Shown here: positions 1,183 through 18,481 of the stretch, piece after piece
Numbering within the stretch: the first letter of the stretch is position 1
Layout: every line of letters begins with the position of its first letter
NCBI GenBank assembly: GCA_020052955.1
Contig: JAGVOB010000150.1
Location: forward strand, 1-32,694
DNA: 32,694 nt
DNA from: Candidatus Omnitrophota bacterium
GTDB lineage: Bacteria; Omnitrophota; Gorgyraeia; VGKN01
Reading direction: 5' to 3'
Made by a program: the position numbers and the translations under genes
The notes under the pieces: model-generated
The model's database searches: none
What the model was told of the DNA's origin: nothing
Seen by the model: the letters and a program-made list of their open reading frames with translations, nothing else

Positions 1183-2239
1183 TCCATATGGGATAGGGGA
1201 TGCTCTTTTTACAACGCCCATTATACGCTCCCTAAAGGAAAATTTCCCATCAAGCGGAATAGATGTTCTGCTTGGCTCAAGGACGAAGGAGGTATTTGAG
1301 TATAATCCTGACGTAGTCGATATAATAGTGTTTGACAAGGGTGAATTTGATAAGGTCGGATTTATTAAAAAGATGGGATTATTGTCTGAGGTATTCAGGA
1401 AATTGAAAAATAAGGGCTATGATTTAATGGTGGATTTATCGAATGCGCCGGAATACGGTTTCTTTGGGAAATTTCTTCTAAGAGTACCTGTAAGGGTTGG
1501 ATTTGATTACAAAAAAAGGGGAAGGTTTTTAACTAAAAAGGTACCACTTAAGGGATTTGAGGGAAAGCATATAGTAGAATTTTACCTTGACCTCTTAAGA
1601 AAGCTGGAAATCACGGTTACGGATAATAATCTGCATATGTATATAACCGATGGCCAGTTAAGATGGGCAGAGGATTTCCTGGTGAAAAATAATATAAAGG
1701 TTTCCGGTATAGTTGTGGGAATAATCCCGGGCGGGGGGGAAAGCTGGGGCAGGGACTCATATCTAAAACGCTGGCCGGCGGAGAATTTTGCAAAGGTTTC
1801 AAAACTGCTAACGGATAAGTTTGATGCGAAGGTTTTGCTTTTCGGCTCAAAGGATGAAACAGGGATATGCAAGGAGATATCGGACTTTTTGGATGGCCGG
1901 GTAGTAGACACGTCCGGAAAGTTGAGCATCTGTGAATTAGCAGCGCTGTTTAAAAAATGCAGTCTTATTATATGTAATGACGGCGGGCCCTTGCATATAG
2001 CAAAGAGCCAGAATGTAAATACTATATCCATATTTGGCCCGGTGGATAGCATGGTATACGGCCCATTCCCAAGGACTGACAGGGATGTAGTTTTAGAAGC
2101 AGCGCTAAATTGCAGGCCATGCTACAAAAATTTTAAAATGTTGGATTGCAAGACAAAAGAATGCCTCAAATCAATATCGCCTGAGATGGTGTTTGAAGAG
2201 GTAAAATCCCTTATCGGAATAAATGGGAAGTGTCCCTGA
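1145..2239 (+). CDS. Glycosyltransferase family 9 / heptosyltransferase-like (tandem paralogue)
   Basis: ILVVNPYGIGDALFTTPIIRSLKENFP and IICNDGGPLHIAKSQNVNTISIFGPVD; overlaps the upstream GT9 end. Confidence 0.87.
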   Translation: MQSEGFRNILVVNPYGIGDALFTTPIIRSLKENFPSSGIDVLLGSRTKEVFEYNPDVVDIIVFDKGEFDKVGFIKKMGLLSEVFRKLKNKGYDLMVDLSNAPEYGFFGKFLLRVPVRVGFDYKKRGRFLTKKVPLKGFEGKHIVEFYLDLLRKLEITVTDNNLHMYITDGQLRWAEDFLVKNNIKVSGIVVGIIPGGGESWGRDSYLKRWPAENFAKVSKLLTDKFDAKVLLFGSKDETGICKEISDFLDGRVVDTSGKLSICELAALFKKCSLIICNDGGPLHIAKSQNVNTISIFGPVDSMVYGPFPRTDRDVVLEAALNCRPCYKNFKMLDCKTKECLKSISPEMVFEEVKSLIGINGKCP

Positions 2240-2246
2240 TAATAAG
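2181..2246 (+). repeat. Direct repeat copy 1 (3' end of GT9 gene and flank)
   Basis: tgagatggtgtttgaagaggtaaaatcccttatcggaataaatgggaagtgtccctgataataa; near-identical segments at 4209-4253 and 5700-5770. Confidence 0.9.
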
Positions 2247-2309
2247 GGGCGTTCTGCGGGCGGCTGGGATCGTCAAAATAGCGTTTTTGAGTGACATGGA
2301 TTGACATGA

Positions 2310-2369
2310 AAATGTCCACTAAATCGAAATGTCTACTGGGGAGTGGACATTTAGCTCCAGTGGACATTT
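2310..2369. repeat. Nested dyad: two AAATGTCYACT boxes facing two AGTGGACATTT boxes
   Basis: Boxes at 2310-2320, 2327-2337, 2342-2352, 2359-2369; 17-bp pitch on each side around a GGGG centre. Confidence 0.85.
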
Positions 2370-2400
2370 GGGATATATATGCCGGTAGCATAAAAATAGG

Positions 2401-2442
2401 TTGACTTTCTGTCAGAAAAAGTGTATATTTTTTCTGACAGAA
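2401..2442 (+). promoter_or_regulatory. Promoter/operator of the AbiEi-AbiEii cassette
   Basis: TTGACT (2401-2406), 17-bp spacer, TATATT (2424-2429); inverted repeat TTCTGTCAGAAAAA (2407-2420) / TTTTTCTGACAGAA (2429-2442). Confidence 0.75.
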
Positions 2443-2456
2443 GAGAGGTGGTATAA

Positions 2457-3056
2457 ATGACGCAAAGTATTTACAATATGATACTTAGCAGGATATACGG
2501 ACGGCATAGGGGTTGGGTATTTACTCCAATTCACTTTCTTGACCTTGGAAGCCGTACGGCTGTAGATCAAACTTTGGGACGTCTGACTAAATCAGGGACT
2601 ATACGTCGTCTGTCTCGAGGATTATACGATTACCCCGCAAAACATCCAGATTTTGGCGACCTTCCGCCTAATCATGATCGTATCGCACAAGCACTGGTGG
2701 GACGAGATAACTTGAAAATTCAGCCTTCCGGCGCATATGCCGCCAATCTGTTAGGATTAACAGAGCAGGTTCCGGCAAAGATTGTTTTTTTCACGGACGG
2801 CCCTAATCGTAAAGTGCAAATTGGGAAGAGGAAGATTGTTTTAAAAAGAACAACGCCGAAAAACATGGCAACAGCCGGACGGATAAGCGGATTAGTTATT
2901 CAAGCCCTGCGTTATTTAAAGCAGGTTAATATAGATTCAACTGTAATTTCAAAACTTAAGAGACGATTGTCTAATAATGATAAAAGCACACTTATGAATG
3001 ATATTCGTTATGCACCAGCATGGATAGGAAATATCTTTAGAAAAATACAAGGGTAA
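2457..3056 (+). CDS. AbiEi-like antitoxin/regulator (DUF6088-like)
   Basis: Winged-helix-like N-terminus (GSRTAVDQTLGRLTKSGTIRRLSRGLYDYPAKHP), directly upstream of an AbiEii-type NTase. Confidence 0.8.
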   Translation: MTQSIYNMILSRIYGRHRGWVFTPIHFLDLGSRTAVDQTLGRLTKSGTIRRLSRGLYDYPAKHPDFGDLPPNHDRIAQALVGRDNLKIQPSGAYAANLLGLTEQVPAKIVFFTDGPNRKVQIGKRKIVLKRTTPKNMATAGRISGLVIQALRYLKQVNIDSTVISKLKRRLSNNDKSTLMNDIRYAPAWIGNIFRKIQG

Positions 3057-3063
3057 GAGGTTT

Positions 3064-4080
3064 ATGGATAATTTTTTGTTATTAAAGGATTTAGATAAAA
3101 AAGTATATTTTGATGTCGTCGCGAATGAATTAGATGTCACGCCTCAACTTATAGAAAAAGATTTCTGGGTGTGCTGGATACTCAAAATACTTTTTTCATT
3201 GCCTGAATCAGGCAATCACTTGACGTTTAAGGGAGGCACGTCGCTTTCTAAGTGTTATAACGTTATCAAGCGGTTTTCTGAAGATGTTGATGTTTCAATC
3301 GAAAGGACTTTTTTAACAAGCCAAGAATCAATTGAGCCCGATAGAAAACAAAGCAGTAAAGAAAATCAGCGAAGGCTGGATCGTTTGAAGCAAGCATGCC
3401 AAGAGAAGATTGCTGATGTAATCATCCCTGAGCTGAAGGACAAAATTGGAGCCGCTTTATCTGACATGGGAAAATGGGAAATCAAACTGGATCCCGATGA
3501 TCCAGACAAACAAACTATTTTATTTACATATCCCAGCATCATAGACAATAGCATGAGTAAGTATATTCAACCTGTTGTAAAGATTGAGCTCGGCGCGCGA
3601 TCGGATCATTGGCCGGTTGAAGTTATGTCTGTCAAACCTTACGTTTCTAATGCGTCCGGTAAGGTGACTATTGAAGGCGCGCAGGTACGTGTTTTGGGGG
3701 CTGAAAGAACCTTTTGGGAAAAAGCGACAATATTGCATGCTATAAGCTACGGCTCAAAGTTACGAACAAGGATGTCTCGTCATTACTACGATGTGGGTGA
3801 GATGGTTGGTTCTCCTATTTATGGTAAAGCCATTCAGAATATTGACCTATTGATAAAAGTCGCAGAACATAAAGCTTTATTTTTCAAAGACAATAAGGCG
3901 CGTTATGATTTAGCAAAGCCCGGTAGTTTGCGATTAATGCCTCAAGATGAGCATATCGTTCAGTTAAATGAGGACTACCGGCAAATGCAGGAAATGTTTT
4001 TTGAGGACCCGCCCACATTTGACCAGATTATAGAAAAATTACGAGGCATAGAAAAAGAGATCAACAGGATTTTATTATGA
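3064..4080 (+). CDS. AbiEii/AbiGii-family nucleotidyltransferase toxin
   Basis: LTFKGGTSLSKCYNVIKRFSEDVDVSIE (GG(T)SL...D.D core); paired with AbiEi-like ORF. Confidence 0.88.
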   Translation: MDNFLLLKDLDKKVYFDVVANELDVTPQLIEKDFWVCWILKILFSLPESGNHLTFKGGTSLSKCYNVIKRFSEDVDVSIERTFLTSQESIEPDRKQSSKENQRRLDRLKQACQEKIADVIIPELKDKIGAALSDMGKWEIKLDPDDPDKQTILFTYPSIIDNSMSKYIQPVVKIELGARSDHWPVEVMSVKPYVSNASGKVTIEGAQVRVLGAERTFWEKATILHAISYGSKLRTRMSRHYYDVGEMVGSPIYGKAIQNIDLLIKVAEHKALFFKDNKARYDLAKPGSLRLMPQDEHIVQLNEDYRQMQEMFFEDPPTFDQIIEKLRGIEKEINRILL

Positions 4081-4208
4081 ATTATTGGCGGACATCGGAT
4101 TATCATTTTTCGCAAAAGGTGGAAAAGAAGGCGAAGTCGAAAAATACCGGCAGATTAAGCCAGAGGATTTGGAAGATTTTCTCAAGACAAGGACGAATAT
4201 AAAGGGAT

Positions 4209-4253
4209 AGGTGAAATCCCTTATCGGAATAAATGGGAAGTGTCCCGAATAAT
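4209..4253 (+). repeat. Direct repeat copy 2 (GT9 3'-end fragment)
   Basis: aggtgaaatcccttatcggaataaatgggaagtgtcccgaataat; no GT9 coding region upstream of it. Confidence 0.9.
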
Positions 4254-4272
4254 TCTAATAATTAATGTCAAT

Positions 4273-4304
4273 TTGTGCATAAAAAAATGTTGTTTTGTGC
4301 ATAA
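4273..4304. promoter_or_regulatory. Two TTGTGCATAA direct repeats with 22-bp pitch
   Basis: 4273-4282 and 4295-4304, upstream of the ATPase gene at 4429. Confidence 0.6.
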
Positions 4305-4428
4305 GTACGTGGTATGCTTATACGAGAAATCCCGAGGCTTTAACGCTTCGAAAATTTAAGCTAAATTTTCTCGCAAGCCACCGAGATATCACTAAATAAA
4401 AACTTATTGTGTTCGAGGAGGCCCGATT

Positions 4429-5649
4429 ATGAAGTATATTCCACGATGGTTGGAGGCAAGGCTTCTAGAAGTACTTAAATCTCACCCAGTAGTCGTTTTA
4501 ACAGGCCCAAGGCAGGTTGGCAAGAGCACGCTTTTAGAGCATGCAGAATTTTTAAAGGATTGGAGATACATAACCTTAGATGATATCGATGCGCTAGAGC
4601 AAGCTAGGGAAGATCCTAAAGGGTTGTTTTGGGAAGATAGGCCTACTATTATTGACGAAGCCCAGCGATGCCCCGAGCTAATGCTTACGGTTAAGTATCT
4701 TGTCGATAAATCCGATCGACGCAGAAACTTCATCCTTTCAGGTTCCGGGAATATATCGTTACGGCAAGCGCCGAGAGAGACATTGGCAGGCAGGGCAAAA
4801 TATTTGCATTTGACTGGGTTTGGTTATAGAGAAATGCACGGACTTCCAGCGCAGGGGCTTCTTGGCCAAATATGGTCCGGCCAAGAGGTTAAAGATTCAA
4901 ATACCAAGCCAACCATAGATCTGGCGCAATCTATATGGCGGGGATGCTTGCCGGGCGTAGTACTTGCTTCAAATGAGAAAATAGCCTTGGAGCGGCTCAG
5001 CAGTTATATTGACACTTATATTCAGCGGGATATACAGGATTTAGTAAAAATCAGGCATCCGCAACATTTTCGCCGTTTGATGGAGGCCTTAGCGCAAGCG
5101 ACAGGCTGGGAATCTGTACAAGATGAGTTATCCAAGGCCTGTGGAGAAACCAGAACAAATGTCAGCAGATACATGAGTTTATTAAAAGATACAAATCTTT
5201 TGTATGAGCTAAAAGGCTATTGCTTAAAGGGCGAAAGAGCATATAAGCAATCAAAATGCTTCTGGTTTGATTCAGGCTCAGCATGTTTCCTCGCTGGTAT
5301 TCGTTCGGCCGCTCAGCTTAAAAAACCTCATGTCAGAGGACGATATTTAGAGAATTTCATCTTGCAGCAGATTTTATCATGGGCTTCTTTGCAGCTGTCA
5401 GCACCTGAGATACTTTACTGGAAACTGAAGGCGCAAGGCGCAGAGGTTGATTTTGTCATCTCTTCAGCTGGCAGGGCCATAGGAATAGAAGTTAAGTCTT
5501 CTAATGAGATCACATTTGGCGATACGAGACCGATGCGTGAATTTCTTAAGTCTCATCCACAGGCTTCAAAAGGCATTATTGTCTATGCAGGGAATAAGAT
5601 TTATCCGGTAGCTACAAATATTTATGCTGTTCCTTGGACAGTTTTCTGA
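4429..5649 (+). CDS. AAA ATPase with DUF4143-type C-terminal domain
   Basis: Walker A VVLTGPRQVGKSTLLEH, Walker B TIIDEAQ, sensor ILSGSGNI; C-term GAEVDFVISSAGRAIGIEVKSS. Confidence 0.9.
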   Translation: MKYIPRWLEARLLEVLKSHPVVVLTGPRQVGKSTLLEHAEFLKDWRYITLDDIDALEQAREDPKGLFWEDRPTIIDEAQRCPELMLTVKYLVDKSDRRRNFILSGSGNISLRQAPRETLAGRAKYLHLTGFGYREMHGLPAQGLLGQIWSGQEVKDSNTKPTIDLAQSIWRGCLPGVVLASNEKIALERLSSYIDTYIQRDIQDLVKIRHPQHFRRLMEALAQATGWESVQDELSKACGETRTNVSRYMSLLKDTNLLYELKGYCLKGERAYKQSKCFWFDSGSACFLAGIRSAAQLKKPHVRGRYLENFILQQILSWASLQLSAPEILYWKLKAQGAEVDFVISSAGRAIGIEVKSSNEITFGDTRPMREFLKSHPQASKGIIVYAGNKIYPVATNIYAVPWTVF

Positions 5650-5699
5650 TTTAAATTTTGGAGCCAATGATTAAATTTGGAATTAGGCAATCATTCGAT

Positions 5700-5770
5700 T
5701 GAGATGGTGCTTGAAGAGGTGAAATCCCTTATCGGAATAAATGGGAAGTGTCCCGGATAATCTGATAATA
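5700..5770 (+). repeat. Direct repeat copy 3 (GT9 3'-end fragment)
   Basis: tgagatggtgcttgaagaggtgaaatcccttatcggaataaatgggaagtgtcccggataatctgataata. Confidence 0.9.
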
Positions 5771-5787
5771 AAAAACGGAGGTTAAAC

Positions 5788-6081
5788 ATGATTACAGTTG
5801 CAAAGATAAAGAAAATACTTGAGAAACACAAGGAAGAGCTTGAGGCAAAATATAACATAAAGGATATAGGTATATTCGGTTCTTACGTGAGGAGAGAAGC
5901 AAGGAAAAAAAGCGATATCGATATCCTGGTTGAGTTTGAAAAGCCCATAGATTTCTTTGATTTTTTGGAATTAGAGGAATACCTTAGCCGAATTCTTAAT
6001 ATAAAGGTGGATTTGGTTATGAAAAAGGTACTAAAACCAAATATTGGGGAAAGTATAATGAGGGAGGTTATTTATGTCTAA
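5788..6081 (+). CDS. MntA-type nucleotidyltransferase antitoxin
   Basis: IGIFGSYVRREARKKSDIDILVEFE (GSx10DxD); overlaps a HEPN gene. Confidence 0.92.
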   Translation: MITVAKIKKILEKHKEELEAKYNIKDIGIFGSYVRREARKKSDIDILVEFEKPIDFFDFLELEEYLSRILNIKVDLVMKKVLKPNIGESIMREVIYV

Positions 6082-6430
6082 AGAAAGAACATACATTGAC
6101 TATGTTAGAGATATAGTAAATGAAATAAATAGAATAGAGAATTTTATTAAGAATTTATCTTATGATGAATTTGTAAAAGACGAAAAGACTATTTATGCAG
6201 TTATAAGGTGTTTTGAGGTTATGGGAGAAGCAGCTAAAAATATACCGAAGCAAATTCGCGATAAGTACTCTATACTTCCATGGAAAAGAATATCAGGAAT
6301 GAGGGATAAGTTGATACATGAGTATTTTGGGGTTGATTATGAGACTTTGTGGCAAACAATTAAGAAAAGGATACCCGAGATTAAACCATCATTAGGCACT
6401 ATATTAAAGGACATGGGAGATAAAAAATAA
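6074..6430 (+). CDS. HepT/DUF86-type HEPN toxin
   Basis: Rx4H motif in GMRDKLIHEYFGVDYETLW; coupled to the MntA gene. Confidence 0.92.
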   Translation: MSKERTYIDYVRDIVNEINRIENFIKNLSYDEFVKDEKTIYAVIRCFEVMGEAAKNIPKQIRDKYSILPWKRISGMRDKLIHEYFGVDYETLWQTIKKRIPEIKPSLGTILKDMGDKK

Positions 6431-6771: not shown

Positions 6772-6864
6772 ATACAGGCTGAGCTTTCAGAGCAGTTTAA
6801 GAAATCCACAGAGCACAAAGAAGAAATTCACAAAAATCTCAGAGGATTAGGATATAAGATGTAA
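6772..6864 (+). pseudogene. C-terminal remnant of an HsdM-like type I methyltransferase
   Basis: IQAELSEQFKKSTEHKEEIHKNLRGLGYKM-stop resembles the HsdM C-terminus; no methyltransferase core upstream. Confidence 0.5.
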
Positions 6865-7015: not shown

Positions 7016-8164
7016 ATGGAGCCTAAATTTAAGTATTTTGAACTAAAATTACTGGAACCTGCTTTTGGTTCTAAGTTAACTGATCTGATTATCGAATTGG
7101 ACTATCTGCGCAAGAAAAAGCTCGGCGGGAGCACTCATCCTCGAACATTTTTTCAGCTTAAAGAAATTTTCCATATTTTGGAAAGTATTGGTTCGGCGCG
7201 CATTGAAGGTAATAGAACAACGATTGCTGAATATATCGAAGCCAGGCTTCACGATGAAGGAACTACCGATGAGAAGATTCGTGAAATCCAGAATATGGAA
7301 AAGGCTATGGACTTCATTGATGAGAATATCCGCAACTATCCAATTAACCGAATGTTAGTCAGCGAACTTCATAAAATGGTTGTTGCAGGTTTGAGCCCTC
7401 AAAGAGAAGGTGACGCCACACCGGGCGAATACAGGATGCAGAATGTGCGGATTGCCAGATCTCAACATATGCCGCCGGACTATACTCAGGTGCCACATTA
7501 TATGGATGAACTATTTGAATTTATTCAGAAAGATACCTCGCCAAAATATGATCTTTTAAAAACCGCTTTGGTTCATCATCGTTTTGTGTGGATTCATCCA
7601 TTTAGAAATGGCAATGGCCGGGCGGTACGGCTTTTTACTTATGCTATGCTGGTTAAGCAAGGATTTAATATTGATGTTGGCCGCATTGTTAATCCTACAG
7701 CCGTTTTCTGTAACGACCGTCAAAAATATTACGATTACCTTGGACAAGCGGATAGCGGAGAAGAACAGGGACTTTTAAATTGGTGTGAATATGTCTTGGG
7801 CGGCCTAAAAGAAGAGATTCAAAAAATTGACCGCTTGCTCAACTATCCTTATCTTTCTAAAGAAATCTTATTGCCAGCTATTGAGTTTTCTTTAGAGCGG
7901 AAAGTTATAACAAATATAGAAGCTAAAATCCTAAAAGTTGCTGTTGGAGAACAGATATTCCAGGCTTCTCATATTAGGAAAATTCTTCCAGATAAAATCC
8001 CTGCTGAGATTTCCAGAATTTTGCGGCGGCTAAAAGAAAAGAAAATGATTGTTTCAGAAAAAGAGAATACGCGCAAATATCTTATGAGTTTTCATAACAA
8101 TTACCTTTTACGGGGTATTATCAAGGCGCTCGGCGAAAACGGATTTCTGCCTGTAAAGGAGTAA
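7016..8164 (+). CDS. Fic-domain protein with N-terminal inhibitory helix and C-terminal winged-helix-like region
   Basis: Fic motif HPFRNGNGR; inhibitory motif SARIEGNRT. Confidence 0.93.
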   Translation: MEPKFKYFELKLLEPAFGSKLTDLIIELDYLRKKKLGGSTHPRTFFQLKEIFHILESIGSARIEGNRTTIAEYIEARLHDEGTTDEKIREIQNMEKAMDFIDENIRNYPINRMLVSELHKMVVAGLSPQREGDATPGEYRMQNVRIARSQHMPPDYTQVPHYMDELFEFIQKDTSPKYDLLKTALVHHRFVWIHPFRNGNGRAVRLFTYAMLVKQGFNIDVGRIVNPTAVFCNDRQKYYDYLGQADSGEEQGLLNWCEYVLGGLKEEIQKIDRLLNYPYLSKEILLPAIEFSLERKVITNIEAKILKVAVGEQIFQASHIRKILPDKIPAEISRILRRLKEKKMIVSEKENTRKYLMSFHNNYLLRGIIKALGENGFLPVKE

Positions 8165-8177
8165 TCATTTCAATTAA

Positions 8178-8554
8178 ATGAGCAAGAATAAATTCTCTAC
8201 CACAAAACGTGGCGGCTCCGCCTCTGGCGGAAAACAAACAGAAACCTGTAGTGAGTCCTTTGGCTTGGTTCGACTTCGCTCACCACAAGTCGCTCAGGAT
8301 AAACTCCGCCGAGGGATAAAAACCTGGCCAGAGGATTTACCCCGTTAGAGATGGCTATTATGCAATATGTTTATGTTTTAAGAAGCACTAAAGATGGTAA
8401 ATGGTATACGGGATGCACTGAAGATAAATCTCTAACGGGGTAAAGGCCAAGAGAGAAACTCTTGAGGTTTGGCGAGCATACCCTAAGCGATACAGAGTTA
8501 TTGGCAATATTACTTAGAACTGGTATAAAGGGTGATAGAAAAAGTAACTTATGA
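8178..8554 (+). pseudogene. radC-like N-terminal remnant, interrupted by a palindromic mini-element
   Basis: IKTWPEDL (8178-8348 frame) then [30 protein letters not shown] from 8444, stop at 8552-8554; no JAB-like catalytic domain follows. Confidence 0.62.
8336..8444. mobile_element. 109-bp mini-element with perfect 17-bp inverted ends, carrying a GIY-YIG N-terminal fragment
   Basis: TTTACCCCGTTAGAGAT (8336-8352) / ATCTCTAACGGGGTAAA (8428-8444); internal ORF 8360-8443 MQYVYVLRSTKDGKWYTGCTEDKSLTG. Confidence 0.65.
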
Positions 8555-11490
8555 TTACAGAATACCACGCAAAATATTTCGCTTATGAATTAACCAAACG
8601 TTGCGCTTCGGACAGTTTAGAAAAATTATCTTCAACGCTTTCGAATGCTCAAGTTGATCTCAATCCCCATCAGGTTGAAGCAGCTCTTTTTGCATTCAGA
8701 TCTCCTCTTTCTAAAGGGGCAATTCTGGCTGATGAAGTTGGCCTTGGGAAGACAATTGAAGCGGCTTTAGTTATTTCCCAAAAATGGGCTGAAAGAAAAA
8801 GAAAGATTCTACTTATTGTTCCATCAAGTTTGCGTAAACAATGGAATGCTGAATTGCAGGAAAAGTTCTTTCTCCCGTCTATTATTCTTGAGACAAAATC
8901 ATTTAATCAATATATCAAGGATGGCAATCTAAATCCTTTTGATCAAGAAGATGTGATTGTTATAAATTCATATCATTTTGCCCGGACAAAATCTTCTTAC
9001 ATCAAACAGACAAAATGGGATTTAGTTGTTATTGATGAAGCGCATCATTTGCGCAATGTTTATAAAACAAGTAATAAGATCGCGCGAGAAATAAAAAGTG
9101 CTTTAAGCAATACCCCAAAAATATTACTTACAGCAACCCCGTTACAGAATTCTTTGCTTGAATTATATGGGCTTGTCAGCGTAATTGATGATCATGTATT
9201 TGGCGATTTAACAAGCTTTAAGGTTAATTATTCTAAAGTTTCAAAAGAGCAAGATGTATTTGAAAGTGAACTTGGCTTAGTCGAACCGAGGCAGGAAATG
9301 TTCACGGACTTACGTAATCGTTTAAAGCCAATTTGCACGCGCACGCTTCGCCGCCAGGTACTCGAATATATAAAATACACAAAGCGTATTCCACTAACGC
9401 AGGACTATATACCGACAGAACAGGAGATTGAACTTTATAATGGCATGTCTGTATATCTTCAGAAACCCAGACTCTTTGCGCTCCCATCAAGTCAGAGACA
9501 GTTAATCACTTTAATTTTACGAAAATTATTAGCATCTTCTTCGTTTGCAATTGCAAGCACGCTCAACAGCATTACATACAGGCTAACAAAGCTTATCGAA
9601 AAAGCCGAGAAGCAGATAGCTGAAAAAGAGTCTGGGATTGAAGGTCTTAGTGAAGATTTTGAAAACTACGATGAGCTTTCTGATGAGTGGAGCGATGAAG
9701 AAGAGGACGATGAAGAGACGACTCAGAAGAAAATAGTTTATACTAAAGAAGATGTTGCCTTGATGAAGCAAGAAAAGGTTGAGCTTGAGAATTATCGCGA
9801 CTTAGCAAAAAAGATTTGGAAAAATTCTAAGGGAGATGCTTTGCTAGTTGCCCTAAAAAAAGGCTTTGAAATGGCGGCAGAGCTGGGTGGTAAGAAGAAG
9901 GCGATTATTTTTACTGAATCACGGATTACTCAGGATTTCCTCTTGCGGCTACTTTCAGAGAACGGATATAAAAATAAAATCGTACTTTTTAACGGCTCAA
10001 ATAATGATGATAAATCTAAGGCGATATATGGGGATTGGTTTAAGAAACATAGAGATACTGACAAGATTACCGGATCGAAAACTGCCGATAAGCGCGCCGC
10101 TATTATAGGTTACTTTAAAGATGAGGCAGAGATTATGATTGCTACTGAAGCAGGCGCCGAAGGTGTTAATCTTCAATTTTGCTCGCTAGTCATCAATTAT
10201 GACCTACCGTGGAATCCCCAGCGCATCGAACAGCGAATTGGCCGTTGCCATAGGTATGGGCAAAAATACGATGTTGTTGTGATTAATTTTGTTAATCGCA
10301 AGAACGCCGCTGATCAGAGGGTCTATGAACTGTTGGATAAAAAATTCAGCCTCTTTAAGGGTGTATTTGGGGCAAGCGATGAAGTATTGGGAAGTATTGA
10401 ATCCGGCGTTGACTTTGAGAAACGCATCGCAGCAATTTATCAATCATGCCGCACGGAAGATGAAATTAATATTGCGTTTGATGTCCTTCAAAATGAAATG
10501 GACGAAAGCATCACAAGTAGTCTAAGAGACACCCGTCAAAAACTTTTAGAGAATTTTGATTCTGAAGTGCATGAAAAGCTGAAAGTTAATATCAAAGAGA
10601 GTCAATCATACCTAGATTGTTATGAGCGTTGGTTATGGGATATAACCCGGTTCTATCTTGGGGACAATGCTGATTTTGCTGAACACGAATATTCTTTTAT
10701 GCTTAAAAGTAATCCTTTTCCTAATAAGGATATCCATCGTGGGCCATACCGCATAGGCAAGAATATTGAAGATGCTCATATTTATCGTCCCGGGCATCCT
10801 TTGGCGCAAAACATTCTTAATGAGGTTAAGAAAAAGCACGTGGATGGAGCGGAATTAGTCTTTGATTATTCTAATAACCCGAGCATTATATCGGTACTAA
10901 AGTCGCTTATAGGAAAGAATGGCATCATGAGAGTGAGTAATTATACTATTGAGGCACTTGAGGCGGAAGACCATGTATTAATTTCTACTTTCGATGAAAA
11001 AGGCGATGCTGTTAAGCAGGATATAGCAAAGAAACTGTTTTCTCTCGTTGGGCAGATACAAAATGATAGAATAGTAATTACTGATGATGAAAAAAAGAAG
11101 CTCGATATTATAGAGCAAGAAACAATAAATCTTATATCTTCTCACAGCGCTGAGCGAAATAGTGAGTTTTTTGACGATGAGGTTGATAAGTTAGACAAAT
11201 GGGCTGACGATATGAAGAAAGCACTTGAGCTTGATTTAAAAAAATTGGATATTGATATCAAAACTGCTAAAACAAATGCGAAGAAAATAGTCGAACTTGA
11301 AGAAAAGATAAAAGTGCAGCGTGAGATAAAGGATATGGAAAAGAAGCGTAATGAAATGCGTAAGAAGCTATATGATGCTCAGGACGAGGTAGATGATAGG
11401 AAAGAAAAATTAATACAGAGAGTAGAAGCCCAGCTTAAGCAAAGAACTTACCTAAAAGAACTTTTTAGTATACGCTGGAAGGTTGTTTAA
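8551..11490 (+). CDS. SNF2-family DEAD/DEAH helicase (RapA/DrmD-like)
   Basis: [14 protein letters not shown] (motif I), DEAHHLRN (II), LTATPLQN (III), [11 protein letters not shown] and [17 protein letters not shown] (V/VI). Confidence 0.93.
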
Positions 11491-11504
11491 ATAAAGGGGA
11501 ACTT

Positions 11505-13223
11505 ATGAGTAATAACAGACAAAAACTTGAACTTACTTGGATCGGGAAAAATAATCCCGAGTATGATATTGCCAATATTGAGCCTCGGATTTTGGAAGAA
11601 AATCCGGATTTGTCATACGGCGATCAGAATACCGAGAATATGATTATCCATGGTGATAACTTGCTTGCTCTCAAGGCGCTCCTGCCAGAATACGAGGGGA
11701 AAATCAAGTGCATCTATATCGATCCGCCATACAATACTGGTAATGCTTTTGAGTACTATGACGATAGCGTTGAGCATTCTACTTGGCTTTCGCTGATGAA
11801 ACCGAGGTTAGAACTCTTGAAAATGCTTTTAAGAGAAGACGGGGCAATATTTATATCGATAAATTATCTGCAACTTGGTTACTTAATTATTTTGTTAGAT
11901 GAAGTATTTGGAAAAATTAATTTTCAAAATATTATTACTATTAAAACGGCTACAACAGCAAGCTTCCGCGCAATTAATTCGTGCCCTGTGAATGTTTCTG
12001 AACAGTTGCTAGTCTACTCAAAAAACAAAGAGTTATTTAAGTCAATTCCTATATATTGGCCAACAGATTATTCAGAAGATTATTCTCATTATATTGAAAA
12101 CGTAGAAGATAAATCAGAAAACTGGAAATTAGTGTCTCTTGATCAAAAAGCAAATGAATATTTTAATGTGGAGGATTGGAAAGGTCTTAAATTAAAGTTC
12201 GGTAGCGAATGGAAGCAAAAACGTTTCGAATTTAAAAAGAAAATCGCATTTAATTCTCCCAATAGAGTAGTTAGTTTAAATACATTACAAAAACCATCAA
12301 AGAAAATACAAGAAATCATCGACAGGTCAAAAAGCACTAAGAATGAAATATTTGAAATAAAAAGAGAGTCGATGAACTCAATATATGTGTTTAATGGAAG
12401 AACGTTAGCTTTTTTTCAGAAAAAGTTTAAACTTATTGATGGTAAAAACATACCTGCAGAAATAATTACAAATATTTGGAATGATATCTCTTTTCTTAGC
12501 CTTGGAAATGAGGGTGGAGTGGATTTCCCGAATAGCAAAAAGCCAGAAAAATTAATCAGCAGAATTTTTCAGTTATTAACAATTGATAATGATCTTGTAT
12601 TGGATAGTTTTCTTGGCTCGGGCACTACCACCGCTGTTGCCCACAAAATGGGACGTAAATATATTGGTATAGAAATGGGAGAGCATGCATATACCCACGT
12701 ACATAAGCGCATGAAAGCTGTCGTAGATGGTACGGATCAAGGTGGCATTAGCAAGGCAGTTGATTGGAAAGGTGGCGGCGGATTTAAGTTTTATGAGTTG
12801 GCTCCAAGCTTTGTAGTGATTGACGAATTCGGTAATCCTGTGATTGATAGCCATTACAACGACACTAAGCTCATTCGCGCAATGTGTAAACTCACGAATT
12901 ATATCTTTTCGCCCAGCCCGAGTGATTACTGGAAGCACGGCAAGGGACAAGGCAATAACAGTATTTATGTAACGACACAAATGCTCTCAGTGGCCATGGT
13001 TCAGCAAATAGTCAGTCATTTGGGCGTAAATGAAACACTACTGATTTGTCCAAAGAAATATGAACCTGGCTGTGAAAAAGTGGATACTCGCATCACTATC
13101 AAAAAAATTCCACAGTCCATTTTGAAAGCCTGTCAATTTGGTAAAAAAGAGTATCTTTTACCCATCAAAGAACGAGCTATTGAAGAGATTGACGAGGAAG
13201 AAGTAACGGATGACGAGGAATAA
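11505..13223 (+). CDS. Type III-like site-specific DNA N6-adenine methyltransferase (Mod)
   Basis: IYIDPPYNTGNAFEYYDDSVEHSTWLSLMKPRL (DPPY) and LDSFLGSGTTTAVAHKMGRKYIGIEM (SAM motif). Confidence 0.92.
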   Translation: MSNNRQKLELTWIGKNNPEYDIANIEPRILEENPDLSYGDQNTENMIIHGDNLLALKALLPEYEGKIKCIYIDPPYNTGNAFEYYDDSVEHSTWLSLMKPRLELLKMLLREDGAIFISINYLQLGYLIILLDEVFGKINFQNIITIKTATTASFRAINSCPVNVSEQLLVYSKNKELFKSIPIYWPTDYSEDYSHYIENVEDKSENWKLVSLDQKANEYFNVEDWKGLKLKFGSEWKQKRFEFKKKIAFNSPNRVVSLNTLQKPSKKIQEIIDRSKSTKNEIFEIKRESMNSIYVFNGRTLAFFQKKFKLIDGKNIPAEIITNIWNDISFLSLGNEGGVDFPNSKKPEKLISRIFQLLTIDNDLVLDSFLGSGTTTAVAHKMGRKYIGIEMGEHAYTHVHKRMKAVVDGTDQGGISKAVDWKGGGGFKFYELAPSFVVIDEFGNPVIDSHYNDTKLIRAMCKLTNYIFSPSPSDYWKHGKGQGNNSIYVTTQMLSVAMVQQIVSHLGVNETLLICPKKYEPGCEKVDTRITIKKIPQSILKACQFGKKEYLLPIKERAIEEIDEEEVTDDEE

Positions 13224-13224
13224 T

Positions 13225-16053
13225 ATGAATAAAACCCAAGCGCTACAGTACATAACTAATGCCATGAGCCTTAGAACTCCTCAAGAAAAGAGTCTGGTGC
13301 TTTTTGCCGATTATTTGGAATCAAATGTGGGTAAAAAAATATTGGCGCGCATGAAACGAGAAAATCGTGGGAATGTGAATGATATTGAGGTGATGACAAA
13401 AGAGTATGGTCAAACGGTGCCTGAGCTATGTCAATTTCAGGCGTTTGAACGAACCTTCCCGGCCTATACTTTTGCTCTTGCTACAGGCGTTGGAAAGACG
13501 CGTCTCATGGGTGCTTTTGTGGCATATCTCTATCTTGTGTATGAAATACAGCATTTTATGCTAGTCGCTCCAGGCAATACTATTTATCGGAAGCTGGTGG
13601 ATGATTTTAGCAAAGCCAACAATCCCAAATATGTATTTAGAGGAATTAAAGAGATAAATATCAATACCACTCGTATAATTACAAAAGATAACTACCAACA
13701 GAATCAAGCTACAGCAAGTCTGTTTGGTAACCAAGTTCAAATCAATATTTTCAATGTTCAACAGTTTGCCCAAAAAGATATTGAGCAGGAGAAGGGGATT
13801 ACTAAGTTCAGCGAGACGCTCGGAGAGTCATATTTTGAGTATCTAAAATCACTTAGTGATTTGGTGGTATTGCTGGATGAATCACACCACTATCACGCAG
13901 ACGCCGCGATGGGATCTCTTGACCGCATAGATCCGTTATTTGGACTTGAGTTTACCGCCACACCGTATATTGTAACAACTGCTACCAGAATAAATACAGA
14001 GCATACTCTTAAGAAAAACATTCTGTATGTGTATAATCTCGGTGATGCAATTCGTGACGGCTATGTAAAAGATCCATGGGTAGGAACGGAAGCAGATGTT
14101 GATTTTGGTCAGTGGGATGCTGAATCTATTGAAACGGATGCCAGAAAATTGCAACTGGCGGCTTTTTTCCATGAGCGCGCTAAAGTGGCATTAAAAGAGT
14201 ATGCTTTAGAGAATAATAAGACGGAAGTTAAGCCGGTTATGTTAGTTGTTGCAAAGGATACTGCGCATGCTAGCCAGCTTCGGGCTTTAATTGACAGCGA
14301 TGATTTTAGAGGGGGCGCCTATAAAGGCAAAGTAATAGAGGTTCACACAAAAACAAAGGGAGAGGAAGCTGATGAGACTATTGAAAAACTGATATCGTTA
14401 GAGCATCCCGATAATATCGTTGAGGTTGTTATTCATGTGAATATGCTCAAAGAAGGCTGGGATGTTACAAATATTTATACTATCGCGCCTATTCGTTCTT
14501 CGGCTTCGGAAATTTTGACTGAACAAACAATTGGCCGTGGTCTTCGCTTGCCATATGGGGAGCGCACAGGCAATAAAAATGTCGACCGCGTTATGATTGT
14601 TGCCCATGATAACTACGCGAAAGTAATTGAAGGCGCGCGTAAATCAAAACTTATCCAACCGTCAAATATTGAAAGTGTTTCAATCCAGGATACAAAATCA
14701 GTTAAAGAAGTGGTTGAAGTTCAATCGGTGTTTGTAGCTAGTATTCAGGAAAAGATTAAAGCTAATTCTGCGATTATGCAGGAGATTGAAGCGCAGGCAG
14801 TAAAGGCAGTAAGCCCTGTGATTTCTGAAGATACCCCGGAAGATGTCAAGGCAGCAACGATACAAAGTAAAACAGATGAAATTGTTGAAAACCTTGCTAA
14901 GCAAGAAGCGTCACGATTAAGTTTTGCGGAATATCACCATCATAAGAAAGTTGACCAAGTGGAACCGGAACCATGGCCCGAAGGCACGCTTTTTAGTAAT
15001 TTAAGCGATCCGGCAAAAAAGGAGCTTGAGAATATTGGACGGGTCTCCGGGCAAACTATAGAAGTGCGAAATATCCCGATTCCACGATTGATGCTTACAC
15101 CTCATTATGGGGAGCTTATTATCGAAGATTTTAATTTAGACACCAAAAGATTAAGTAGGTATGCGACAGAGATTTCCATACTGGAAGAGCGTCTTCAGGG
15201 AAGCCAAGAGAAGGATTTGTTTGGCAATACACAAGAAGGAGCTCGGGAAACCGAAATAACTCGCGTATCAAGCCTTGGCGAGGGGAGAAAACAAAGTCCT
15301 GAAAACACCATTATTTCTGCTCTCATTGAACAGCCGCTACTTGATTATGAAGAGCAGAAAACATTATTGCTCAAGCTTTCAGGTCAGGCGGTTATGCATT
15401 ATAAGTCATTTGTAAGCGATGAAAATTCGCTCAAGATGATGATTGAGAATAACTTTCGCCAAATTGCCAAAGAAATTTATGATCAGATATTGGAACATAA
15501 AAAATTTGTTTCTGATGGATATCTTGAATCAGGTATTCGAGAGCCAAAGCCATATCTTGAGCAATATAATATTTCTCTGGTTCAGAATGAAAAGCCAGTA
15601 ACTTTAGAGTCACAAGTTAATCGTTTTTCAAGAGATAAAATTTATACAGGATTTAGCAAGGCATGTCATTCAATGTATCGTTTTGATTCGTCCGATGAAG
15701 CGCGCATGGCATATCTTCTTGATAAAGATTCTTCTTTAGAAGATTGGCTGCGTCCAGCACCAAATCAGTTTGAGGGGCTCTATTGGCGTGATGAAGCTGG
15801 TAATTCCCAACACCGCTATGAGCCTGATTTCGTGGTTGAATTTAAAAAAGAGATAGTGATGATTGAGGTAAAGCCAGGCATAGAAATTAATACTCCAGAT
15901 GTACAAGAAAAGAAGAAAACGGCTGAGAAATACTGTGAATTAGTTTCAAAGAATATCGGAAGTTTCGGTATAGTAAAGCCATGGAGATACGTGATTGTTA
16001 CAACAGAAAAAATAACTCTAAGCGCCACAGTAACTGGATTATTAGCAAGATAA
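13225..16053 (+). CDS. Type III-like restriction subunit (Res): DEAD helicase with C-terminal PD-(D/E)XK-like nuclease
   Basis: ALATGVGKTRLMGAF, LLDESHHYHAD, EFTATPY, EQTIGRGLRLPYG; C-term YEPDFVVEFKKEIVMIEVKPG. ORF track starts at 13210; the ATG at 13225 just after the mod stop is more likely. Confidence 0.9.
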   Translation: MNKTQALQYITNAMSLRTPQEKSLVLFADYLESNVGKKILARMKRENRGNVNDIEVMTKEYGQTVPELCQFQAFERTFPAYTFALATGVGKTRLMGAFVAYLYLVYEIQHFMLVAPGNTIYRKLVDDFSKANNPKYVFRGIKEININTTRIITKDNYQQNQATASLFGNQVQINIFNVQQFAQKDIEQEKGITKFSETLGESYFEYLKSLSDLVVLLDESHHYHADAAMGSLDRIDPLFGLEFTATPYIVTTATRINTEHTLKKNILYVYNLGDAIRDGYVKDPWVGTEADVDFGQWDAESIETDARKLQLAAFFHERAKVALKEYALENNKTEVKPVMLVVAKDTAHASQLRALIDSDDFRGGAYKGKVIEVHTKTKGEEADETIEKLISLEHPDNIVEVVIHVNMLKEGWDVTNIYTIAPIRSSASEILTEQTIGRGLRLPYGERTGNKNVDRVMIVAHDNYAKVIEGARKSKLIQPSNIESVSIQDTKSVKEVVEVQSVFVASIQEKIKANSAIMQEIEAQAVKAVSPVISEDTPEDVKAATIQSKTDEIVENLAKQEASRLSFAEYHHHKKVDQVEPEPWPEGTLFSNLSDPAKKELENIGRVSGQTIEVRNIPIPRLMLTPHYGELIIEDFNLDTKRLSRYATEISILEERLQGSQEKDLFGNTQEGARETEITRVSSLGEGRKQSPENTIISALIEQPLLDYEEQKTLLLKLSGQAVMHYKSFVSDENSLKMMIENNFRQIAKEIYDQILEHKKFVSDGYLESGIREPKPYLEQYNISLVQNEKPVTLESQVNRFSRDKIYTGFSKACHSMYRFDSSDEARMAYLLDKDSSLEDWLRPAPNQFEGLYWRDEAGNSQHRYEPDFVVEFKKEIVMIEVKPGIEINTPDVQEKKKTAEKYCELVSKNIGSFGIVKPWRYVIVTTEKITLSATVTGLLAR

Positions 16054-16090: not shown

Positions 16091-16130
16091 GAAATCAAGG
16101 GACACAATACTAATTGTTTTGACAGAGATA
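16091..16130 (+). repeat. ~40-bp direct repeat, copy 1
   Basis: gaaatcaagggacacaatactaattgttttgacagagata; matches 17053-17093. Confidence 0.8.
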
Positions 16131-16216: not shown

Positions 16217-16345
16217 ATAGCATATGCTATCAAATATCTATCCCATTGCAAGAGGACCATGGCCTATGGCCATGGGTGAACGGTGGTTCGGGACGTCGCC
16301 CCACGAGGGCGTAAAAGTTTTAGGGGACCACGTGCATGCACGTGG
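16217..16345. repeat. Cluster of perfect palindromes
   Basis: ATAGCATATGCTAT (16217-16230), CCATGGCC-TAT-GGCCATGG (16257-16275), CCACGTGCATGCACGTGG (16328-16345). Confidence 0.85.
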
Positions 16346-16690
16346 GGCTCCAGTTATTTTGTGGATGAAAAGGGCAATAATCTGGTTAAGCAATTTATAA
16401 AATCATTGCCTGTTAAAGAACGCGCAAAAGTATTTGCTTATCTTGTTGAATTGAAAAATCAAGGACATAGCTTGCACAGGCCGATGGTGGATTATTTGAA
16501 AGATGGGATTTACGAACTAAGGCCAAAAGATAATCGGATCTTCTATTTCTTTTTCTTAAAAGATAACGCCGTTTTGGTTCATGCAATCAGGAAGAAAACA
16601 GACAAAATTCCAGAGGGGGATTTGAGATTATGTATAAAAAGGAAGACGCTGGTAGAGGGGTATAAACAAATAGAAAAAATAGAACTGTGA
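16283..16690 (+). CDS. HigB/RelE-superfamily toxin (Gp49-like); N-terminal ~26 codons probably repeat-derived
   Basis: YFVDEKGNNLVKQFIKSLPVKERAKVFAYLVELKNQGHSLHRPMVDYLKDGIYELRPKDNRIFYFF; HTH gene follows. GTG codons at 16283 and 16361 are candidate starts. Confidence 0.85.
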   Translation: MVRDVAPRGRKSFRGPRACTWGSSYFVDEKGNNLVKQFIKSLPVKERAKVFAYLVELKNQGHSLHRPMVDYLKDGIYELRPKDNRIFYFFFLKDNAVLVHAIRKKTDKIPEGDLRLCIKRKTLVEGYKQIEKIEL

Positions 16691-16700
16691 GGTGGTTTAG

Positions 16701-17027
16701 ATGAAAAAAATTAGGTTAGAAAAAATTGATGTTCATTTAAAAGAAGAATTAAAGAACAAAGAATTCAAAAAAGTTTTTGAGATTGAGAGAGCGAAAGTAG
16801 TGTTGGCGCAGAAGATAGCAGAAATAAGACGCGAAGAACATTTAAATCAAGGGGAGCTTGCTAAAAGGCTAAATGTTTCTCAACAGTTTATCTCTCAGAT
16901 AGAGACAGCCCAGGAAAGCAACCTTACTCTAGATACCCTTATAAAGATAGCTAAATCTTTAGGTAGAGGTATTAAAATTTCATTCCCCAGGGTTTCTAAG
17001 CAGGGTTCTTACCTAAGCGTAGCATAG
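16701..17027 (+). CDS. HigA-like XRE-family HTH antitoxin
   Basis: LNQGELAKRLNVSQQFISQIETAQESNLTLDTLIKIAKSLG. Confidence 0.9.
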   Translation: MKKIRLEKIDVHLKEELKNKEFKKVFEIERAKVVLAQKIAEIRREEHLNQGELAKRLNVSQQFISQIETAQESNLTLDTLIKIAKSLGRGIKISFPRVSKQGSYLSVA

Positions 17028-17052: not shown

Positions 17053-17093
17053 GAAATCAGGGGACACAACACTAATTGTCTTGACAAAAGATA
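17053..17093 (+). repeat. ~40-bp direct repeat, copy 2
   Basis: gaaatcaggggacacaacactaattgtcttgacaaaagata; contains the -35 TTGACA used below. Confidence 0.8.
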
Positions 17094-18410: not shown

Positions 18411-18481
18411 TATACATTCGCGGCCAGAACAATGGCCGCTCAGTATGAGCCATACGGAAACCTGTTATGGAAGGCTTTATT
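18411..18481 (+). repeat. Composite palindromic repeat, copy 1
   Basis: tatacattcgcggccag + aacaatggccgct + cagtatgagccatacggaaacctgttatggaaggctttat; includes GCGGCCA-6-TGGCCGC hairpin. Confidence 0.85.

Follow-up and report, generated by a model that had tools for sequence, protein, structure and literature searches.

A glycosyltransferase gene end repeated between toxin-antitoxin and defense cassettes in an Omnitrophota genome: possible scars of serial import

By what route do single toxin-antitoxin (TA) or defense genes arrive at chromosomal sites if no mobile element carries them? This open question is raised by contig JAGVOB010000150.1 of a Candidatus Omnitrophota bacterium (assembly GCA_020052955.1, a draft genome of 2.38 Mb in 232 contigs). 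The whole stretch of 32,694 nucleotides analyzed here, termed the window, is this complete contig (C186), and the relatives of its GT9 (glycosyltransferase family 9) genes likewise point to Omnitrophota. Within it, the 3' end of a glycosyltransferase family 9 (GT9) gene occurs three times among TA and defense genes, giving the order GT9, AbiEi/AbiEii, copy 2, DUF4143 ATPase, copy 3, MntA/HepT. We lean, with modest confidence, towards reading the repeats as scars of serial import, in which each cassette would have entered together with a gene end by one-sided homologous recombination. The pattern is a known one with new aspects, namely a different cargo, stacked arrays, presence in several members of one class and data that bear on how the repeats arose.

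The repeat is 45–62 bp long and consists of the 3' end of the second of two GT9 genes plus about 20 intergenic bases; all three copies lie in the window, on the forward strand like the GT9, AbiE, DUF4143, MntA/HepT and radC features and the repeats around the HigBA-like cassette described below. Copy 1 (2182–2243) comprises the tail of the intact gene (1145–2239; Pfam Glyco_transf_9, 2.3e-31), the one whose tail is repeated, followed by a short motif and TGATAAT. Copy 2 (4209–4265) holds 12 GT9 codons, the motif and downstream bases, and copy 3 (5700–5772) coincides with a GT9-like frame at 5677–5757 that has no GT9 gene upstream. Identity is 95% over 62 bp between copies 1 and 3, 93% over 57 bp between copies 2 and 3, and 93% over 45 bp between copies 1 and 2. 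Copy 2 starts at 4209 as proposed in the initial annotation, a reading of the sequence that preceded this study, and it lacks the 'gaagag' part. The 33-mer AAATCCCTTATCGGAATAAATGGGAAGTGTCCC, allowed up to three mismatches, matched the 2.38-Mb genome three times, each match being a repeat copy. The search across related genomes that had been suggested was run with this 33-mer and gave no match in 98 other genomes of the class; since the reversed-pattern control was empty as well, a chance origin of the triple repeat is excluded. The exact repeat had no match in viral contigs. A structured attachment site or RNA at the repeat was considered and rejected, as fold z-scores for the three copies were −0.3 to −0.4 and an Rfam search returned no match.

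Alignments, Pfam and PADLOC agree with the initial annotation that the three gene ends delimit the cassettes. The AbiEi antitoxin (DUF6088; 2457–3056; Pfam 5.9e-44; PADLOC AbiEi 2e-72) and the AbiEii toxin (3064–4080; Pfam 6.2e-41; PADLOC 7.7e-104) stand between copies 1 and 2, the DUF4143 ATPase (AAA_14 plus DUF4143; 4429–5649; Pfam 2e-31; PADLOC candidate PDC-S01, 2.6e-97) between copies 2 and 3, and the MntA-like nucleotidyltransferase antitoxin (5788–6081; Pfam NTP_transf_2, 6.9e-16; PADLOC PDC-S09, 4e-31) with the HepT-like RNase toxin (6074–6430; Pfam 4.1e-29) behind copy 3; no fourth copy follows MntA/HepT in the window. The AbiE module was said to lie exactly between the first two copies; the order holds, but an orphan C-terminal reading frame (4088–4207), whose TAG stop lies immediately 5' of copy 2, also sits between AbiEii and that copy. 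Its translation had no match in Pfam or NCBIfam. Pfam scans of the cassette genes examined found no transposase or integrase domain.

Could the orphan ends simply be what is left of three tandem GT9 genes, or an artifact of metagenome assembly? A tandem pair of GT9 genes is indeed present, the first (124–1182; Pfam Glyco_transf_9, 1.7e-30) with a 3' end of its own that is not repeated, and the assembly is a draft. The orphans, however, are the last 12–22 codons of the gene with unrelated DNA upstream, in agreement with the earlier observation that copies 2 and 3 lack a glycosyltransferase before them. When the complete GT9 protein was searched against the genome, the other GT9 genes that it matched lacked the tail, and the sole further tail match was the 22-residue remnant at 5689–5754 before MntA; copies 2 and 3 are therefore not leftovers of resident GT9 genes, and recombination between GT9 paralogs, offered as one origin of the array, is not supported by this result. 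Misassembly fits poorly with a longest exact run common to the copies of only ~39 bp, with flanks that differ between copies and with independent loci of the same layout. Both explanations are extremely unlikely.

The layout of a gene, a TA or defense cassette and an orphan end of that same gene recurs on five further contigs (C22, C204, C42, C218 and C230). These loci were found through low-copy direct repeats touching gene ends and through the surroundings of MntA-like and DUF4143 genes, in about a quarter of the genome read as stretches whose choice was guided in part by the motif and by TA genes; frequencies are therefore not genome-wide estimates. Blind counts of local direct repeats were uninformative because of many dispersed intergenic repeat families, and low-copy gene-end pairs alone were kept; locus counts depend on the thresholds (at least 25–30 bp, ~75% identity), which overlook old pairs, for instance the C22 tails and their intact gene. 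C22 nearly replicates the GT9 locus: its intact gene codes for a C1 peptidase and is followed by DUF4143, 41 bp of peptidase tail, MntA/HepT and a longer peptidase tail. On C204 an intact thpR is followed by a HEPN/MNT pair and, beyond it, 260 bp of thpR tail. C42 carries a nitroreductase tail around a zeta TA pair and another gene, within which lies a motif-bearing copy of the zeta TA tail. On C218, the initial 40 bp of trpF recur beyond a Fic gene, and sequence from downstream of trpC surrounds a UDG gene; C230 has 25 bp of the MacB head around a YhcG nuclease. A dnaE head flanks ~450 bp without a gene on C177, and a 31-bp repeat around HEPN-MNT on C5 is not tied to a gene end. Flanking direct repeats at C186, C22, C204, C42, C218, C177 and C230 thus vary from 25 to 260 bp, and four of the eight MntA-like loci examined have gene-end flanks. 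The proposal of a special accumulation site within a lipopolysaccharide locus is not supported by these results, as the other loci use thpR, C1 peptidase, nitroreductase, trpF and other genes.

Other members of the class show the same arrangement. In the surroundings of DUF4143 genes in other Omnitrophota (40 stretches), the tail of gap recurs ahead of pgk, beyond a HATPase gene and DUF4143; a maf tail and a uvrA head each flank a single DUF4143 gene, and a recQ tail flanks DUF4143 in another genome. A flank-against-flank test found direct repeats on both sides of 17 of 63 DUF4143 genes, compared with 27 of 448 other genes (p = 2e-6), though for some of these 17 genes the repeats are dispersed ones rather than gene ends, so that the number measures flanking repeats in general. 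The same test in random stretches of two relatives gave 2 of 205 genes. A tRNA-like repeat around a DUF4143 gene in stretch L214 was set aside, there being no intact tRNA in that stretch. A cassette array with another type of repeat was seen in stretch L252 (contig C13 of genome G100), where an 80-bp intergenic repeat, present several times, separates small genes and a DUF4143 gene.

One explanation for such a geometry is local target duplication, in which a staggered break or replicative end-filling would duplicate 25–260 bp and the orphan copy would then decay. It suits the layout of all loci, and it is in line with trpF head copies that are identical over 40 bp and with GT9, zeta and nitroreductase copies that are 91–98% alike; long and variable target duplications have been described for restriction-modification genes (PMC3874152, PMC3031569). 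We compared the copies with a simulation of local duplication followed by decay, in which the intact side took up only synonymous changes and the orphan side changed neutrally (300 runs), assuming equal mutation input on both sides and one transition bias. With all pairs pooled, 102 of 161 differences fell on third codon positions against a simulated 73 ± 5.5 (maximum 89), and 48 codons changed the amino acid against a simulated 92.5 (minimum 79). The thpR, C1 peptidase and uvrA pairs each lay outside the simulated range, and dnaE and gap deviated weakly in the same direction, whereas the GT9, zeta, nitroreductase and maf pairs have too few differences to discriminate import from duplication. 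The thpR copies align over 260 bp without a gap at 20% divergence, and the two orphan tails on C22 are 93% alike mutually but just 69–74% like the intact C1 peptidase gene. Because the differences are mostly at synonymous third positions, the ends at thpR, C1 peptidase and uvrA appear to have evolved in working genes and to have met later. Classical end joining is moreover unlikely, as Ku was not found in the genome. Local duplication is an unlikely candidate, and at the loci with enough sequence the duplicated ends were probably joined by import rather than copied on the spot, as judged from their codons. Serial insertion of TA cassettes with duplication of the target tail, as first put forward, therefore stands as far as serial accumulation, a gene end repeated at each boundary and recurrence of the pattern in the genome are concerned, but probably not for the long pairs, which are diverged homologs with mostly synonymous differences.

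Taken together with the layout, the comparisons suggest that cassettes came in by import beside a homologous gene and not through the action of a transposase. The incoming DNA would carry a homolog of a resident gene with an adjoining TA or defense cassette. A crossover within the common gene would anchor one side and leave the resident gene intact, and the far end would join inside the end of the resident gene via illegitimate recombination or very short homology. A piece of the resident gene end would thereby remain beyond the cassette, beside the old neighbor gene. Repeated rounds at the GT9 gene may have produced the series GT9, AbiE, tail, DUF4143, tail, MntA/HepT, with the newest cassette adjoining the intact gene; this order is suggested by the C22 locus and by an analogy with type VI immunity arrays (PMC5361080). 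One-sided import would need no integrase, and a ComEC gene is present in the genome. Repeats would sit at gene ends because only outcomes with both neighboring genes functional would survive.

Several points weigh against import. The pooled synonymous signal comes mainly from three loci. At the GT9 locus itself, only 5 positions in 22 codons distinguish copy 3 from the intact gene, most of the changes being non-synonymous, and with so few differences of this kind the locus lends no support to import over local duplication. About half of the examined MntA-like loci (those on C230, C88, C99 and C81) have no clear flanking gene-end repeat. The insertion event was not seen, the nearest genomes compared being of the same class with no close empty-site relative among them. 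Finally, import leaves unexplained a motif found inside or adjoining the repeats at four loci.

This motif gives the repeat a composite structure, the left half being the GT9 tail, unique to this site, and the right half ATGGGAAGTGTCCC a separate repeat dispersed in the genome. The motif AATGGGAAGTGTCCC, located by a pattern search of the genome, lies at 2222–2236 in copy 1 and at 4232–4246 and 5740–5754 in the other copies, and matches the genome 15 times with at most one mismatch and 24 times with at most two, against 3 for the reversed control. Orthologs of the second GT9 gene in the class mostly stop aligning at residue 350–360 of its 364 residues, and with alignments ending near residue 355 the final codons NGKCP are read from the motif. 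The initial annotation had held that a repeat spread over the genome independently of TA genes would speak against its reading; the motif half is indeed often found without TA genes, and the GT9-tail half occurs at this site only.

The motif could be the end of a REP-like or insertion sequence (IS)-like element that moves cassettes together with flanking DNA. Its dispersal and lineage specificity would agree with this, as would its position in or beside the repeats at C186, C42, C218 and C177. Against such an element, the motif is absent at C22, C204, C5 and C230 in the genome-wide search, and none of 291 further genomes of the class has its 16-nt form, relatives with the same layout included. 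Many motif copies lack any cassette, and the fold of the repeat is not unusual. We regard the chance of a REP-like or IS-like origin as slim. A derivation of the motif from RAYT/REP elements in particular was rejected, since the three Y1_Tnp loci of the genome, in an assembly that may be incomplete, carry other ends and none has the motif at its flanks. Repeats GAAACGACACGATTTA beside the Y1 transposase gene on C167 recur between hisS and aspS on C177 (stretches L014 and L079) and are probably the ends of the RAYT-like element of C167.

Gene ends repeated between modules also recall site-specific integration, in which they would be the attachment sites of small elements without an integrase, mobilized in trans. 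The restored and repeated 3' ends between modules in one orientation are its classic picture, and a large serine recombinase-like frame lies on C42 (positions 2–1624 of stretch L081), ~5 kb before the nitroreductase/zeta cassette locus and overlapping a miaB-like gene. In the accretion of cis-mobilizable and integrative mobilizable elements, modules without an integrase are indeed separated by repeats of a gene 3' end; the loci described here differ in having no constant core, in using 5' as well as 3' ends, in the variable length of their repeats and in the lack of an integrase in the scanned genes. Different genes are used, as heads or tails, over 25–260 bp and with no core common to the loci, a role that the motif, missing from four of them, does not fill. 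Integron gene cassettes likewise form arrays of small cassettes, often TA pairs, separated by ~60-bp repeats in one orientation. Here, by contrast, the repeat is a gene tail that has no significant fold and differs at every locus; no attC-like folded site stands behind the cassettes, and the scanned genes include no integron integrase. Site-specific integration is very unlikely.

The closest known pattern is insertion with long target duplication, a term of Kobayashi's group for restriction-modification genes of Helicobacter pylori and other bacteria (Nobusato et al. 2000; Furuta et al. 2010; cited in PMC3874152, PMC3031569 and PMC1643837). Both cases involve selfish or defense genes without a transposase between long, variable direct target repeats (on the order of 100 bp; PMC3874152). 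The Omnitrophota loci differ in their TA, DUF4143, Fic and HEPN-MNT cargo, in the stacked series at one gene end, in the position of repeats at gene ends and in long copies that resemble diverged orthologs rather than fresh duplications. In the literature retrieved for this term together with toxin-antitoxin, the term was used for restriction-modification genes or merely cited, and no TA case was described. Import as an account of what Kobayashi's group named in this way is our best reading. A second parallel is offered by the orphan immunity-gene arrays of type VI secretion in Vibrio cholerae, which have been attributed to homology-facilitated illegitimate recombination (PMC5361080). Serial push-down with the newest gene by a conserved anchor and displaced genes downstream would be common to both, and the copies there come from different strains (PMC5361080); the anchor there is a secretion gene functionally tied to the module, whereas here unrelated housekeeping genes are used at either end. 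A bolder version, which we consider quite unlikely, is an Omnitrophota-wide, integrase-free pool of TA and DUF4143 cassettes that would land at arbitrary housekeeping gene ends with a foreign copy of the gene or of its end, exchanging these between species, with the DUF4143 ATPase perhaps promoting the step.

Further scars and repeats were noted around these loci. An orphan radC 5' end (8444–8551; Pfam UPF0758_N, 3.2e-13; residues 1–31 of 218 of TIGR00608) lies directly 5' of a defense helicase gene at 8551 and looks like a further gene-end scar in the same island. The region 8360–8551, with a weakly matching GIY-YIG head fragment and the radC head before DrmD-like helicase and type III restriction genes, looks scar-like, and it belongs to a large defense block (7016–16053) with a SoFic-like Fic gene, a DrmD-like SNF2 helicase, a type III methyltransferase and a restriction subunit. 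A short frame at 6772–6861 ending in HKNLRGLGYKM resembles the C-terminal end of a methyltransferase; searches of Pfam, NCBIfam and PDB gave no confirmation. A HigBA-like cassette (16283–17027) is bordered by direct repeats at 16091–16124 and 17053–17086, which are identical at 29 of 34 positions and have one further relative on contig C17 (stretch L120). The dispersed intergenic repeat AGTATGAGCCATACGGAAACCTGTTATGG occurs at 18441, 25227 and 27129, and the stretches sampled from the genome contain at least 14 copies of it. Contig C58 (stretch L085) has 77-bp inverted copies with TAACCCTAACC-like runs at both of its ends (1–77 and 6347–6423).

Duplicated gene ends beside single TA and defense genes can be read as a scar of landing site, polarity and arrival order. 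Testing the codon positions at which the two copies differ discriminates between target duplication and import next to a homologous gene; the same test is applicable to earlier restriction-modification cases as well as to defense islands in general. If import is correct, housekeeping genes beside such cassettes would often be partly foreign.

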